Below the pieces are notes generated by a model that had not been told where the DNA came from, searched no databases, and saw nothing but the letters and a program-made list of their open reading frames with translations. A program made the translations under genes and the position numbers. DNA of 45,000 nt from positions 1 through 45,000 of the forward strand of contig JAQXPH010000011.1 of the NCBI GenBank assembly GCA_029100545.1. The letters are read 5' to 3'. Positions 953 to 35,720 of the stretch are shown here, in pieces. Within the stretch, counting starts at the first letter, position 1; each line of letters begins with the position of its first letter. The stretch comes from a bacterium (GTDB lineage: Bacteria > Bacillota_I > Bacilli_A > RF39 > UBA660).

Positions 953-3514
953 TTGGGACTAACTGAAAAAGAAGTTGTTGAATCAAGAAAAAAATATGGA
1001 AGTAATGAAATAACAAAAAAAAATAATAATTCATTTTTTAAACTATTAATTGAGTCATTATCTGATCCAATTATAAAAATTTTATTAATAGCTCTTGCTA
1101 TAAAAGTTGTTTTTTTATTTAAAAATTTTGATTGGTATGAAACATTAGGCATTGTAATTGCTATTTTTTTAGCTTCATTTATTTCATCGATTAGTGAATA
1201 TGGTTCAAATAAGGCTTTTGAACGCCTGCAAGAGGAAAGTCAAAGAACATATGCTAAAGTAATTAGATCAGGAAAACTTCAAAAAATATTATCTAAAGAT
1301 GTAGTAGTAAAAGATTTAGTTGTTCTTGAAAGTGGCGATAAAGTTCCAGCAGATGGTTATATAAAAGAAGGATTTTTATCAATTGATGAATCTTTTATAA
1401 CAGGTGAAGCTAAAGAAGTTAATAAAAAATATAGTGACAATCATAATGAAGTTTATAGTGGTAGTACTATATATAAAGGTAGTGCAAAAGTAATTATTAC
1501 TAATGTTGGAGATAAAACTTTTATAGGTGGAATATCTAGTGATATTCAAACTAAAGGTGGAGAAAGTCCTTTAAAAGGAAGACTTAGAACACTTGCAAAA
1601 AGCATTAGTAAACTAGGATATATTGGCGCAATACTAGCAAGTATATCTTATCTTTTTATGCAAATTGTTGTTAAAAATAATTATAATTTAGATTTAATTG
1701 TAGATACTTTAAAAAATATTCCACTTATGACCAATTATTTAATTTATACTTTAACTTTAACTGTAACTATTATTATAGTGGCAGTTCCTGAAGGGCTTCC
1801 TATGATGATTACTTTAGTACTATCATCTAATATGAAAAAAATGCTTAAAGATAATGTTTTAGTTAGAAAACTTGTTGGTATTGAAACAAGTGGTTCACTA
1901 AATACACTTCTTTGTGATAAAACTGGTACACTTACTCTTGGTAAATTAAATGTAAAATATATCGTCACAAAAGATAATAAAATTTTTAAAAATAAAAATG
2001 AAATTAAAATATATAAAAAATATTATGATGTATTAATTAAATCATTATATCTTAATAATGAAACAATTTTATCAAGTGGCAATTTAATTGGTGGTAACAC
2101 TACAGATAGGGCAATCAAAAATTTTATTGGAGAAGATATTATTAATGATAAGATAATTCAAAAAAAATTATTTTCTTCCGAAGATAAATATAGTATGGTA
2201 CAAACTAATGAATATTATTTTTATAAAGGTGCTAGTGAAGTAATATTAAATAAATGTAAAAATTATTTGGATATTAATGGCAATATAAAAAAAATAGAAA
2301 GTAAAAGTTATATAGAAAATATGATTAAAACATACATGGAAAAAGGATATCGTGTACTAGTTAATGCTTATGGAAAAGATGAAAATAATTTAATTTTTAT
2401 TAATTTAATTATTATTTCTGATACAATTAGACCAGAAGCAAAACACAGTCTTGAACTTATTAAAAGTGCTGGAATTAAAGTTATTATGATTACAGGTGAT
2501 GCTAAACAAACTGCAATAAATATTGCAAAAGAATTAAATTTACATGAAAGTAATTCAATTGCTCTTACGCATGATGAACTTGAAAAACTTTCGGATGATG
2601 AAATTGTTAAAATATATCCCAAACTTTCAGTTATTGCTAGAGCGCTTCCCCAAGATAAAAGTAGACTTGTATCAATTTTTCAAACTTATGGTCTTGTTGT
2701 AGGGATGACTGGTGATGGGGTAAATGATGCACTTGCCCTTAAAAAAAGCGATGTTGGTTTTGCTCTTGGAAGTGGCTCAGAAGTTAGTAAAGATGCTAGT
2801 GATATTGTTATACTTGATAATAATATATTTTCTATTTGTAAAGCTATTTTATATGGCCGTACTATTTTTAAAAGTATAAGAAAATTTATTATTTATCAAT
2901 TAACTGTTAATATATGCGCTCTTATTTTATCAATTGTTGGTGTTTGGGTTGGAATTTCAACACCAATTACAATTATTCAAATGCTTTGGCTTAATATGAT
3001 TATGGATACTTTTGCTGGTCTTGCATTTTCTTATGAACCACCATTAAAAGAATATTTATATGAAAAACCTAAAAGTAAGAATGAACCAATTATGAATAAA
3101 TATATGTTTAATCAAATATTAGTAAATGGTTCATATTCAGCATTACTTTGCTTACTTTTTTTAAAACTTCCAATTATAAGTCATTTTATTAGGTTTAGTG
3201 AGGGAAATAAATTTTTATATACGGCGTATTTTGCTTTATTTATTTTTTTAGGAATTTGTAATTCATTTGCCTCAAGAACACATAGATTAAATATTTTTGC
3301 TAATATTTTAAAAAATAAAGTATTTTTATTAATTAACATTTTTATATTTTTTGCACAAATTTATATTATTTATTTTGGTGGAAATTTATTTAGAACTTAT
3401 GGTTTAACTTCAAAAGAATTAATATTTGTATTTATTTTGTCACTTACTATTTTTCCTATAGATTTTATAAGAAAAAAGATTTTAAAGAAAAAGAATATTC
3501 AAATTGGCGTATAA
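953..3514 (+). CDS. P-type Ca2+-transporting ATPase (type II)
   Basis: An 853-residue cation pump of the type II family, probably exporting Ca2+ across the cell membrane at the expense of ATP. Visible in order: an N-terminal cation-ATPase segment (1-60), the actuator TGE motif in DESFITGEA, a PEGLP motif in TM4 as in Ca2+ pumps, the phosphorylation motif DKTGT with Asp322, a nucleotide-binding domain, the hinge MITGD, GDGVNDALALKKSDVG, and four or more C-terminal membrane helices. Length fits bacterial PMCA/LMCA1-like pumps. The start is TTG, chosen because GGAGG lies nine bases upstream and because the family N-terminus begins there. It is monocistronic. Ion specificity is inferred from the family and not proven. 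Confidence 0.88.
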   Translation: MGLTEKEVVESRKKYGSNEITKKNNNSFFKLLIESLSDPIIKILLIALAIKVVFLFKNFDWYETLGIVIAIFLASFISSISEYGSNKAFERLQEESQRTYAKVIRSGKLQKILSKDVVVKDLVVLESGDKVPADGYIKEGFLSIDESFITGEAKEVNKKYSDNHNEVYSGSTIYKGSAKVIITNVGDKTFIGGISSDIQTKGGESPLKGRLRTLAKSISKLGYIGAILASISYLFMQIVVKNNYNLDLIVDTLKNIPLMTNYLIYTLTLTVTIIIVAVPEGLPMMITLVLSSNMKKMLKDNVLVRKLVGIETSGSLNTLLCDKTGTLTLGKLNVKYIVTKDNKIFKNKNEIKIYKKYYDVLIKSLYLNNETILSSGNLIGGNTTDRAIKNFIGEDIINDKIIQKKLFSSEDKYSMVQTNEYYFYKGASEVILNKCKNYLDINGNIKKIESKSYIENMIKTYMEKGYRVLVNAYGKDENNLIFINLIIISDTIRPEAKHSLELIKSAGIKVIMITGDAKQTAINIAKELNLHESNSIALTHDELEKLSDDEIVKIYPKLSVIARALPQDKSRLVSIFQTYGLVVGMTGDGVNDALALKKSDVGFALGSGSEVSKDASDIVILDNNIFSICKAILYGRTIFKSIRKFIIYQLTVNICALILSIVGVWVGISTPITIIQMLWLNMIMDTFAGLAFSYEPPLKEYLYEKPKSKNEPIMNKYMFNQILVNGSYSALLCLLFLKLPIISHFIRFSEGNKFLYTAYFALFIFLGICNSFASRTHRLNIFANILKNKVFLLINIFIFFAQIYIIYFGGNLFRTYGLTSKELIFVFILSLTIFPIDFIRKKILKKKNIQIGV

Positions 3515-3535
3515 AAATTGTCTTATTTTGACACC

Positions 3536-3545
3536 TTTTGTCGAA
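3536..3545 (+). promoter_or_regulatory. Candidate Spo0A box
   Basis: TTTTGTCGAA contains the full TTTGTCGAA form of the B. subtilis Spo0A box. It lies in the 83-base gap before the endonuclease gene, just after a TTGACA hexamer (3528-3533). By my rough estimate one such nine-base match could occur by chance in 45 kb, so the assignment is tentative. No other gene could be its target. Confidence 0.35.
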
Positions 3546-3597
3546 GTTGTTGATATTTAATAAATGATATTATAAACTTTTCTCATCAGGAGGAATT

Positions 3598-4365
3598 ATG
3601 TGTCAAGAATTTAATAATATTATAAAAAAATTTAAAGAAATAAAAAAACTTAATTATGTTGAAAGTATAAATAATGATTTTAATGGAATAGGTCTAACAT
3701 TTGAAAAACTAATTGGTAAAGAGGTAGATACTTTTTCATATCCCGATTATGAAGGAATAGAAATAAAAACAACTTTAAAGATAACTGAATATCCAATTGC
3801 TTTATTTAGTTTAGCTCCATGGTCAAGTCATTTTCCTGCTCTAGATTATTTAAGAAGAAAATATGGATATTTGCAAACAGAAATCGAAGATAATAGAAAA
3901 CTTAATGCAGTTTTTTATTATGATAAAAATGAATTGATTTCAAATAGGTATTTTTTTAATTTAAAGTGTGATGATAAAGAAGAAAAACTTTATTTACTTA
4001 TTTATGATATAAACTTTAATTTAATTGATGATGGTACTTATTGGTATTATAGTGACTTAAAAGAAAAACTTGAAGTAAAGTTAAAATATTTAGCATTAAT
4101 ATATGCAAGCGCTAAAAATATTAATAATAAAAAATATTATTATTATCGAGAAATATATTGTTATAAATTAAAAGGTTTTAATATATTTTTAGATCTTATA
4201 AAAAGAAATATTATTTGTATTAATATTACAAGTAGAATTTCAAAAACAAAGGATAATATTGATAAAATGAAATGTGGTTGTTATTTTAAAATTAATAAAT
4301 TTGATGTTAATAAATTATTTGATTTAGTTTATGCCGAAGGAAACAAAGAAGATAGATTTTTATAA
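3598..4365 (+). CDS. MvaI/BcnI-family (MutH-like fold) endonuclease
   Basis: A 255-residue protein whose N-terminal part has the PD-(D/E)XK layout of the MvaI/BcnI and MutH-related nucleases: GIGLTFEKLIG (helix with Glu), then PDYEGIEIKT, giving a D...E-x-K catalytic set around residues 47-56. The rest (YLRRKYGY, WYYSDLKEKLEVKLKYLA, YKLKGFNIFLDLI) is like other clostridial and bacillar proteins annotated in this family. It would cut double-stranded DNA. No methyltransferase or specificity gene is next to it, so it is either a solitary nuclease or a nicking/repair enzyme. A strong AGGAGG site precedes ATG. A Spo0A-like box lies upstream. The exact activity is inferred. Confidence 0.6.
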   Translation: MCQEFNNIIKKFKEIKKLNYVESINNDFNGIGLTFEKLIGKEVDTFSYPDYEGIEIKTTLKITEYPIALFSLAPWSSHFPALDYLRRKYGYLQTEIEDNRKLNAVFYYDKNELISNRYFFNLKCDDKEEKLYLLIYDINFNLIDDGTYWYYSDLKEKLEVKLKYLALIYASAKNINNKKYYYYREIYCYKLKGFNIFLDLIKRNIICINITSRISKTKDNIDKMKCGCYFKINKFDVNKLFDLVYAEGNKEDRFL

Positions 4366-32977: not shown

Positions 32978-33006
32978 ATTTTACAATAATTTTTGTAAAA
33001 TGTCAA
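32978..33006 (-). promoter_or_regulatory. lexA promoter
   Basis: On the minus strand TTGACA (33001-33006), 17 bases, TAAAAT (32978-32983), 27 bases before the ATG. The LexA-like box 33005-33016 overlaps the first two bases of the -35. Confidence 0.75.
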
Positions 33007-33016
33007 ACAAATGTTT
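33005..33016. promoter_or_regulatory. LexA-like box at the lexA promoter
   Basis: AAACAAATGTTT is a perfect hyphenated palindrome matching the Gram-positive pattern GAAC-N4-GTTC/T at the inner bases of both half-sites. It touches the lexA -35, the expected place for self-repression. Confidence 0.6.
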
Positions 33017-33025
33017 TTATTTTAA

Positions 33026-33054
33026 TTGACACGAACAAATATTTGCTTTATGAT
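33026..33054 (+). promoter_or_regulatory. Promoter with a LexA-like box in its spacer, for the 36-codon gene
   Basis: TTGACA (33026-33031), 17 bases, TATGAT (33049-33054). CGAACAAATATTTG (33032-33045) fills the spacer; its left half CGAAC is consensus and its right half is degenerate. A bound LexA dimer would block RNA polymerase. The ATG of the small gene is 23 bases downstream. Confidence 0.6.
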
Positions 33055-33076
33055 GTTATTGAAAGAAGTGATTAAT

Positions 33077-33187
33077 ATGTTAAAAAAATTGTTTAAAGAT
33101 TATGGTTTAATTTTATTATTTTATTTATTTTTAATTTTTTGTATTTTAATATTAAATGCTAGGTTTTCTTATTTAAATGTTAATTAG
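33077..33187 (+). CDS. 36-residue single-pass membrane peptide, putative SOS-induced division inhibitor
   Basis: Starts at ATG 33077 with an AAAGAAGTGATTAAT ribosome site and ends at TAG 33185-33187. The peptide has a basic head (MLKKLFKDYG), one Leu/Phe/Ile-rich helix (about 11-27) and a short polar tail (NARFSYLNVN). I see no named family. It lies between divergent lexA and tkt, exactly where B. subtilis has yneA, and its promoter carries a LexA-like box. YneA, SosA and Caulobacter SidA are small SOS-induced membrane proteins that stop division; the same role is inferred here. YneA's LysM domain is absent. Confidence 0.6.
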   Translation: MLKKLFKDYGLILLFYLFLIFCILILNARFSYLNVN

Positions 33188-33209
33188 AAAAAAATTGTTT
33201 GGCAATAAT

Positions 33210-33261: not shown

Positions 33262-35244
33262 ATGGCAGTAAAAAATAATGATGTAGTAAATAATATAAAA
33301 ATGCTTGCAATTGATATGATAAATGATGCAAGTGAAGGACATCCAGGCGTTGTAATGAGTAGTGCACCAATTATTTATGCACTTTATAATAATATATTAA
33401 ATGTTATACCAAATAATCCAAATTGGATAAATCGTGATAGATTTGTTCTTTCATGTGGGCATGCATCAGCACTTTTATATTCAATGCTATATTTCGCTGG
33501 GTTTGATTATTCGATTGAAGATTTAAAAAGGTATCGTGATGTTGATTCTTATGCTCCAGGTCATCCTGAATTAAATATTTTAATGGGAGTAGAGTGTTCT
33601 ACTGGTCTTTTAGGCCAAGGAATAGCTAATGCGGTAGGTATGGCTCTTGCAGAGCGTTATTATGAAAATATTGCTAAAAATATAGATAATAAATTAAATT
33701 TAATAGATTATTATACTTATGTATTATGTTCTGATGGTGATCTTGAAGAAGGAATAAGTTATGAAGCATTATCTTTTGCAAGTAAACAAAAATTAAATAA
33801 ACTAATTGTAATATATGATGCCAATAAAATATCAATTGATGGAAGTATTCAAAAAACATTTACTGAAGATATTGAAACTCGATTTGATGCCCTTGATTTT
33901 AATATTATTAATGTAAAAAATGGTAATAATGTTTCAAGTATAACAGATGCACTAAAAGAAGCTAAAAAAAGTGATATGCCTAGTTTAATAATAGTAAATA
34001 CAATTTTGGGAGATGGACTTGAAAATGCTGGAACAAATAAAGTTCACTCAGGTGTAGTAGATAAAGAAGAAGTCTTGATATTAAAACAAAAATATAATAT
34101 TTCTTTAGAACCATTTAATTATGATGATAATATAAGAAAATTTGTAAATGGTAATATTTTAGAAAGAGTTAATAAAAAATATAGTAAATGGCAAATTGAA
34201 TATGATAAAGCTTTAGCTACAAAAAATAGTACTATTATAAATATGATTAATTTAATTGGAAAAGGTGATTTTTTAATAGATTTTGATTCAACAAATTATC
34301 AAATAAATGATAAATATTCTGAAGAAGGTAGAATATCAAATGAAAAAGTAATTAATTTTATTGCTCCGAAAACTAAATTTTTCGTTGGTGGTAGTGCTGA
34401 TTTATTTAGATCTACTAGAACTATTATTGAAAAAGATAGTTTAATGACTGATGAAGATCCTTTAGGAAGAAATATAGAGTTTGGGGTAAGAGAAGGTGCC
34501 ATGGGCGGTATATTAAATGGCCTTGCTATTTCAGGGCTTAGATGCTTTGGCTCAACATTTTTAGCTTTTGCAGACTATCTAAAAGCCTCAATGAGAATGA
34601 GTGCAATGATGAATTTGCCAGTAACTTATATTTTTACTCATGATAGTGTAAGAGTTGGTGGCGATGGTCCTACTCATGAACCAATTGAACAACTATCAAT
34701 GCTTAGAACTATTCCAAATATGATAACTTTTAGACCTGCTGATATTAATGAAATAATAGGTTGTTGGGAATATATTTTAAAAAATAAAAAAACTGTAAGT
34801 CTAGTTTTAAATAAAGAAAATACAAAAATATTAAAACATACTAATGGTAAATATGTTAAATATGGAGCGTATATTGTAAGAAAAGAAAAATATCATTTAG
34901 ATGCTACAATAATTGCTACGGGTTATGAAGTAACAACAGCACTTAAAATAGCAGATGAATTATTTAATGAAGGAATAGATTTAAGAGTAGTTTCTATGCC
35001 TTCAATAGAATTATTTTTACTTCAAAATCCAGTGTATGAAGAAAAATTATTGCCAAAAGATGTATTAACTTTTACTTTAGAAGCAGGTTCAACACTTTTA
35101 TGGAATAGATTTGCAAGTAATCCAAAATGTGCTTTAGGTATTGATACTTTTGGTGTTTCAGGCAAAAAAGAAGACGTTTTAAAATTTGTTGGCTTTGATT
35201 ATAATGTATTAATAATGAAAATAAAAAATATGTTAGGAAAGTAG
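33262..35244 (+). CDS. tkt: Transketolase
   Basis: A 660-residue thiamine-diphosphate enzyme transferring two-carbon units in the pentose phosphate pathway. Three domains are visible: the TPP-binding part with LSCGHASALLYSML, GHPE, STGLLGQGIANAVGMALAE and CSDGDLEEG; the pyrimidine domain with EFGVREGAMGGILNG and THDSVRVGGDGPTHEP; and the C-terminal domain. The ATG at 33262 (MAVKNND) is preceded by GGAAGTGAAATT; a longer in-frame N-terminus from TTG 33199 has no ribosome site. Located after lexA as in B. subtilis and followed by sirA. Confidence 0.95.
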   Translation: MAVKNNDVVNNIKMLAIDMINDASEGHPGVVMSSAPIIYALYNNILNVIPNNPNWINRDRFVLSCGHASALLYSMLYFAGFDYSIEDLKRYRDVDSYAPGHPELNILMGVECSTGLLGQGIANAVGMALAERYYENIAKNIDNKLNLIDYYTYVLCSDGDLEEGISYEALSFASKQKLNKLIVIYDANKISIDGSIQKTFTEDIETRFDALDFNIINVKNGNNVSSITDALKEAKKSDMPSLIIVNTILGDGLENAGTNKVHSGVVDKEEVLILKQKYNISLEPFNYDDNIRKFVNGNILERVNKKYSKWQIEYDKALATKNSTIINMINLIGKGDFLIDFDSTNYQINDKYSEEGRISNEKVINFIAPKTKFFVGGSADLFRSTRTIIEKDSLMTDEDPLGRNIEFGVREGAMGGILNGLAISGLRCFGSTFLAFADYLKASMRMSAMMNLPVTYIFTHDSVRVGGDGPTHEPIEQLSMLRTIPNMITFRPADINEIIGCWEYILKNKKTVSLVLNKENTKILKHTNGKYVKYGAYIVRKEKYHLDATIIATGYEVTTALKIADELFNEGIDLRVVSMPSIELFLLQNPVYEEKLLPKDVLTFTLEAGSTLLWNRFASNPKCALGIDTFGVSGKKEDVLKFVGFDYNVLIMKIKNMLGK

Positions 35245-35255: not shown

Positions 35256-35303
35256 TATTTTTTTAATATTAAATGATATCATCTTTTTGAAATGAGGGAT
35301 GAT

Positions 35304-35720
35304 ATGAGAAAATATTATGTATTTAATGTTAATAAAGAAATGAGTATACTTGCTAAAGATTCACCATATATGCTTTATAAAAGTTTTGAAACTATTTATA
35401 ATTCAAATAAAAAAGAAATAAATATTGCTCAAAATTTATATGAACAACTTGCAATGAGATTAAATCAAAATGTTATTAATCAAAAAATATATGCAGAATA
35501 TAAAGATAATGATTATTACTATTTAGTTAATAATTCTCATAATTATTATAATAAATATAAAGGAGAAGAAGAAAAAGTAATAGTAAAAAATACTTATTTA
35601 TATTGCACAAGTAATACAACTAATTTAAAATTATTAAAACCACTTACAAATTATAATTTTTTTGTTTGTGACTTTGAAAATAAAGACTATTTTTGGATAG
35701 ATGAAATATATTCAAGGTAG
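35304..35720 (+). CDS. sirA: SirA-family sporulation inhibitor of replication
   Basis: A 138-residue protein assigned from gene order and pattern. B. subtilis has sirA (yneE) between tkt and yneF, as here. The start MRKYYVFNVNKEM, the mid-region Leu/Gln-rich helices, and the ending NFFVCDFENKDYFWIDEI correspond to the SirA ends YYTYLIK and the MDF...RYGWL motif. SirA binds domain I of DnaA and blocks new rounds of replication in cells entering sporulation. ATG 35304 is chosen (GAGGG at proper spacing; aligns with known SirA starts) over ATG 35292. A Spo0A-like box lies upstream. Overall identity is low, so this is a probable rather than sure call. Confidence 0.7.
   Translation: MRKYYVFNVNKEMSILAKDSPYMLYKSFETIYNSNKKEINIAQNLYEQLAMRLNQNVINQKIYAEYKDNDYYYLVNNSHNYYNKYKGEEEKVIVKNTYLYCTSNTTNLKLLKPLTNYNFFVCDFENKDYFWIDEIYSR

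Follow-up and report, generated by a model that had tools for sequence, protein, structure and literature searches.

The characterized Gram positive genes listed as lying beside lexA in PMC6851548 (yneA, sosA, chiZ and divS) encode division inhibitors that have one membrane segment each. YneA of B. subtilis and Listeria is divergent from lexA and LexA-controlled, and has an N-terminal membrane helix with the remainder of the protein outside. Through this helix YneA binds TM7 of FtsW; in B. subtilis the helix alone reaches the divisome without blocking division, and the LysM domain is essential (PMC13396833). SosA of Staphylococcus is also divergent from lexA and LexA-controlled, with one helix and an outer tail that lacks LysM; this 77-aa protein becomes hyperactive after a 10-residue truncation (PMC6851548). 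DivS of Corynebacterium and ChiZ of Mycobacterium are lexA-adjacent proteins with one membrane segment as well (PMC6851548). SidA of Caulobacter, only 29 aa long, is SOS-induced, acts on FtsW and FtsN, and binds FtsW (PMC4211646).

Here we describe a 36-aa peptide encoded divergently from lexA in the window, the whole 45,000-nucleotide stretch of DNA that was analyzed. The peptide and its relatives resemble YneA in gene position, LexA-type control and membrane helix, but where YneA has its LysM domain they have no more than some 10-25 polar residues as a tail. With SosA the family shares these features, a LysM-less tail that is predicted to lie outside, and some conservation at the extreme C-terminus. 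However, the two are set apart by the description of SosA, a 77-aa protein whose membrane-proximal stretch (residues 37-45) is needed for activity (PMC6851548), whereas the peptide family spans 30-54 aa with the conserved pattern GG, Y, G, N-x-R-F-x-x-L-N and V/I-A-M/L-N. SidA is similar in its very small size, single helix and lack of LysM, and in the SOS induction that is predicted for the peptide, but belongs to an unrelated lineage. DivS and ChiZ differ in being actinobacterial, ChiZ has a LysM domain, and no family model common to them and the peptide was found.

A short gene paired with lexA

The gap between lexA and tkt holds a 36-codon ATG ORF with its stop (TAG) at 33185-33187 (Table 1), and the product of the window copy is MLKKLFKDYGLILLFYLFLIFCILILNARFSYLNVN. 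A mechanically called ORF of 53 aa opens with the TTG inside the -35 box at 33026, which is why the earlier finding starts at that position. AlphaFold2 models the peptide as a lone helix of residues 2-35 (mean pLDDT 89.6). The helix core is uncharged and the basic residues lie outside it, with a net flank charge of +2.3 on the N-terminal side versus -0.5 on the C-terminal side. Because the residues ahead of the helix are basic and those in the tail behind it neutral to acidic, we predict an N-in, C-out topology.

Table 1. Features of the lexA-peptide locus and the regions of the predicted LexA regulon
Feature	Position	Strand	Details
lexA, 205 aa	32333..32950	-	DNA-binding domain (PF01726, E 4e-21) and S24 peptidase (PF00717, E 2e-32)
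lexA promoter	32978..33006 (-35 33006-33001)	-	TTGACA-N17-TAAAAT, 11/12 matches
Second LexA-type box	33004..33017	+	CAAACAAATGTTTT; overlaps the lexA -35; exact match to the genome motif
Peptide gene promoter	33026..33054 (-35 33026-33031; -10 33049-33054)	+	TTGACA-N17-TATGAT, 11/12 matches
LexA-type box of the peptide gene	33032..33045	+	CGAACAAATATTTG; fills most of the promoter spacer
Ribosome-binding site	33061..33072	+	GAAAGAAGTGAT; from the window sequence; purine-rich site conserved in relatives
Peptide gene	33077..33187	+	One membrane helix; based on ORF, homologs, held-out profile score and AlphaFold2
In-frame stretch past the TAG	33188..33208	+	KKIVWQ, then TAA; probable tail remnant, judged from sequence and family lengths
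tkt (transketolase)	33262..35244	+	Downstream neighbor; not needed for the lexA-peptide association
Predicted regulon region L156 (G000:C21)	2062-3661		Exact box
Predicted regulon region L157 (G000:C33)	2078-3251		Exact box

We compared the surroundings of lexA in 30 genomes of the same genus or family and at 80 public-genome loci, which together gave 104 distinct upstream regions. The titles of the public genomes name uncultured Bacilli, Bacillales, Erysipelotrichaceae, Tenericutes and Candidatus Ventrenecus, several of them from rumen samples. A homologous or equivalent small hydrophobic ORF with a ribosome-binding site occupies the same position at 97 of the 104 loci, ranging from 30 to 54 aa in length (mostly 44-50). 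Such an ORF is absent at four loci (L010, L024, L029 and L030). At another three the contig breaks off; two of these (L036 and L108) show the 5' part of the ORF. A 31-aa ORF without a box at L010, from the same genus, was not counted as a member, and a few divergent members (e.g. L016) are tied to the family mainly by position. In a sample across genera, the peptide was present in 27 of 35 genomes of the family and in 9 of 10 within the genus; the remaining eight family genomes possess lexA with no peptide adjoining. A class-wide sample gave convincing sequence matches in this bacterial family only. Two weak matches (about 5e-5) were not counted, one being a 19-residue partial match and the other lying within a 401-aa frame.

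The family consensus reads MKKxLKKYGGxILFYxVIxxGVxLLNxRFxxLN, followed by a polar stretch and then V/I-A-M/L-N-K/E; Y15 is conserved in 86% of members and R28 in 77%. Conservation along the helix was tried for a one-sided periodicity that would mark one binding face, and this was not significant (p=0.30). The window peptide scored 43.2 bits against a profile built without it, versus 7.9 bits or less for 500 of its own shuffles. Substitutions at codon positions 1, 2 and 3 numbered 276, 156 and 404, respectively. An unconserved frame with dN/dS near 1 had been named beforehand as evidence against the gene, and comparison of the lexA-tkt gap across relatives as a check. The comparison showed both the ORF and the boxes described below to be conserved, and dN was below dS in all 28 independent close pairs (ratio 0.06-0.97). 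On these sequence comparisons, the ORF is a real, constrained protein gene. The opposite reading, in which the ORF arose by chance or the interval serves tkt as its leader or untranslated region, draws on the location of the window ORF directly upstream of tkt. However, codon-level conservation and retention of the ORF where another gene than tkt follows make this most improbable, and at the family level these two findings already refute it. A leader peptide for tkt was likewise rejected, as the gene remains with lexA in loci without tkt.

The peptide still adjoins lexA at eight loci where tkt is not next (L011, L013, L014, L016, L018, L022, L027 and L028), the pair being followed there by rpsB, polA or other genes; the unit is the lexA-peptide pair. 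In the window the downstream order is tkt, a SirA-like gene and YneF, which is also the order downstream of B. subtilis yneA. The sequence-only reading had placed in this gap an ATG gene with a ribosome-binding site, a basic head and one helix, in the position of yneA divergent from lexA. All of these elements are present and the gene order agrees. Its size of 36 residues holds for the window copy, but members of the family are typically longer and carry a C-terminal tail.

The SirA-like gene (35292-35720 in the window) is conserved between tkt and YneF and was also seen at L031, L063, L175, L176 and L183. The Pfam SirA cut-off is passed by four relatives and narrowly missed by the window copy. 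SirA in B. subtilis is an inhibitor of replication initiation. At L175, L176 and L183, which lack tkt, the SirA-like gene directly follows the LexA-box peptide, and for this reason a SirA-like replication brake might share an SOS transcript with the peptide.

LexA-type boxes and predicted SOS control

The promoters of the peptide gene and lexA are the two best promoter-like sites in the gap, and in most relatives the peptide gene has a TTGAC-type -35 at an unchanged place. The strict B. subtilis box, CGAAC-N4-GTTYG, has no match in the genome to which the window belongs; the motif of this lineage is about CRAACAAATGTTYN. The exact motif CRAACAWWTGTTY occurs at three places only in the 1.13-Mb genome (93% complete), upstream of lexA, of recA, and of a Y-family polymerase-YolD pair. 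The recA gene (PF00154, E 4e-141) has the site about 110 bases upstream, and the polymerase site lies just before the Y-family polymerase ORF (PF00817, E 1e-30), which is followed by the YolD protein (E 1e-13). The lexA, recA and Y-family polymerase genes are textbook SOS genes. Because its carriers are of this kind, CRAACAWWTGTTY is, by sequence, the SOS box of the lineage. The minimal LexA regulon predicted from exact boxes in this 1.1-Mb genome would comprise lexA, the Y-family polymerase with YolD, and recA (Table 1).

The box of the peptide gene differs from the strict motif at one position, with the CGAAC half-site intact, and is placed between the -35 and -10. Two box-like sites (a score of at least 8 of 10 against CRAAC-N4-GTTYG) lie between lexA and the candidate ORF in 98 of 98 regions from relatives, versus 0.5% of mononucleotide-shuffled regions. 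L010, L024 and L030, which have no family peptide, keep a single canonical box, that of lexA. Shuffles of the 45 kb contained a mean of 1.13 matches to the lineage-type pattern at one mismatch or fewer, and two boxes per 45 kb are not unusual by count; the two stand out by where they lie, by being conserved and by the other carriers of the motif. The sequence-only reading had reported a LexA box within the spacer of the TTGACA-N17-TATGAT promoter. That box is indeed there, is conserved, and has a motif common to the recA, lexA and Y-family polymerase promoters, but the second box, at the lexA -35, had been missed. With a LexA box in its promoter, the peptide gene is very likely induced by DNA damage.

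In one genome group (L084-L096 and L101) an ending in GTTYG has given way to one in GTATT or GTATA in both boxes of the gap at once, which suggests that LexA and its sites have drifted jointly.

A candidate division inhibitor without LysM

Searches of Pfam, NCBIfam and PHROGs gave no family match for the peptide. Matches to FAM210, SecE and DUF entries of the family libraries were at chance level, and a match of one member to the FtsL model (E 0.11) was taken as chance. Among 24 members we found no LysM match, in line with what had been supposed for the window peptide, and the sequence is too short to hold such a domain; no YneA-named NCBIfam model matched these members at E<=1. Our search of the open-access literature found no published description of the family, and a literature search found none of the SOS response of this uncultured Bacilli lineage. 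The sequence-only reading had suggested that the peptide may be an undescribed minimal SOS division inhibitor; the word undescribed stands for the family but not for the kind, since the LysM-less SosA and DivS occupy the same position. Within the reach of our searches this sequence family is new, as are its size and the lineage that carries it, whereas lexA-linked SOS membrane division inhibitors are a known kind.

We consider it probable that the peptides form a family of minimal SOS-induced division inhibitors, similar to YneA, SosA and SidA but without LysM, although no sequence kinship with the known inhibitor families was detectable, which counts against this reading. Inhibition of division is our best guess for the function because the characterized Gram positive lexA neighbors and SidA are division inhibitors. 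As the YneA helix alone does not inhibit, a peptide with so short a tail would have to act differently, more as SosA or SidA does. From the computed features (a real gene under constraint, its box, promoter geometry, linkage to lexA and predicted helix) we infer a course for damage induction, topology, division arrest, target and turnover. LexA would occupy the spacer box and keep the peptide gene off, while the second box would serve to repress lexA itself. Upon DNA damage, RecA would prompt the self-cleavage of LexA and the peptide would be made. It would insert with its basic N-terminus inside and the short polar tail outside, and the helix would most likely dock on FtsW or PBP2B (a SEDS and class-B PBP pair), keeping the septal wall-synthesis complex inactive and division held back until repair. 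A CtpA-type protease would probably clear the peptide of most species by way of its conserved hydrophobic C-terminus (about V/I-A-M/L-N-K/E). The genome encodes three intact FtsW/RodA-type proteins and an S41 (CtpA-type) protease. An apparent premature stop within an FtsW match was rejected, as it is the natural terminal stop of the protein.

The peptide might instead be an SOS-induced hydrophobic membrane toxin that lowers the proton motive force and leads to dormancy, with no specific block of division. It is like TisB of E. coli, a LexA-controlled type I toxin of about 30 aa with one helix, in its size, its lone helix and its control by LexA. TisB, which is reportedly a dormancy-inducing membrane toxin, is not encoded beside lexA, is controlled by an antisense RNA and depolarizes the membrane. 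Type I toxins are patchy and duplicated, whereas the peptide is a single gene locked beside lexA in many genera. The interval has no Rfam match (a known RNA family). On the minus strand, only weak promoter-like sites (9/12) lie over the ORF, and shuffles of this region average 4.5 sites. The outlying basic residues speak against a toxin, as do the uncharged helix core and the conserved Y15 and R28, which suggest a protein partner; overall, we regard a toxin of this type as unlikely.

Many one-helix bacterial peptides of 30-50 aa tune transporters or proteases, and the SOS-induced peptide could similarly regulate some other membrane protein (a transporter, a protease or a Sec component) with no direct effect on division. 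However, the retained gene order downstream of B. subtilis yneA and the division-inhibitor function of the characterized Gram positive lexA neighbors YneA, SosA, ChiZ and DivS (PMC6851548) leave this only a slim chance. As a division inhibitor, the family would provide a large, uncultured group of Bacilli from gut and rumen with an undescribed family-wide SOS effector, and offers dozens of natural sequences of the would-be smallest division brake in Gram positive bacteria. If a LysM-less helix works, binding of the SEDS-PBP pair within the membrane can suffice, which would bear on FtsW inhibition and be informative because YneA needs its LysM domain.

The C-terminal tail and copies elsewhere

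Most relatives, at 43-53 aa, have a C-terminal tail, whereas the window copy ends without one after NARFSYLNVN. Read through to the TAA, the window frame has 43 codons, which is within the family length range, and a single in-frame TAG has probably removed the tail. It could be argued that the family is functional but the window copy a relic in decay: relatives of 43-54 aa share the conserved C-terminus, KKIVWQ remains in frame past the TAG that took the tail, and one mismatch sets the box apart from the strict motif. However, the start, ribosome-binding site, promoter, box and helix all remain undamaged, and the score of the core is 43 bits. Two further tail-less members, L105 (30 aa) and L179 (34 aa), keep intact cores, so the peptide may be able to do without its tail, and we doubt that the window gene is a relic.

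SosA that lacks its 10 C-terminal residues accumulates and inhibits more, but removal of 30-40 residues abolishes activity (PMC6851548). Because SosA truncations give either outcome, the window peptide may be longer-lived without its tail or, should activity depend on the tail, weaker. A more elaborate proposal, which we find tentative and rather unlikely, is that a bare helix of about 30 residues, without LysM or sometimes even a tail, arrests septal synthesis via FtsW, that the tail is a protease tag timing recovery, and that the window species lost it and so stabilized its version. With the natural tail-less copies at hand, members with and without a tail can be compared to see what it does in turnover.

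A homolog of 55 aa (37.9 bits) was found away from lexA at L172 (G030:C24, reverse strand 1291-1458), among phage genes that include one for an Erf-like annealing protein, and no box was found upstream of it. It is apparently a prophage-borne copy; none was confirmed in viral contigs. Finally, at L111 (G057), from another family of Bacilli with a LexA 49% identical, a different membrane ORF of 57 aa is divergent from lexA. This ORF, which the family profile does not recognize, lies behind lineage-type LexA boxes and is followed by a YnzC-like gene and tkt. With a different membrane ORF in the same place, it looks as if the slot beside lexA is often filled by a small membrane protein.
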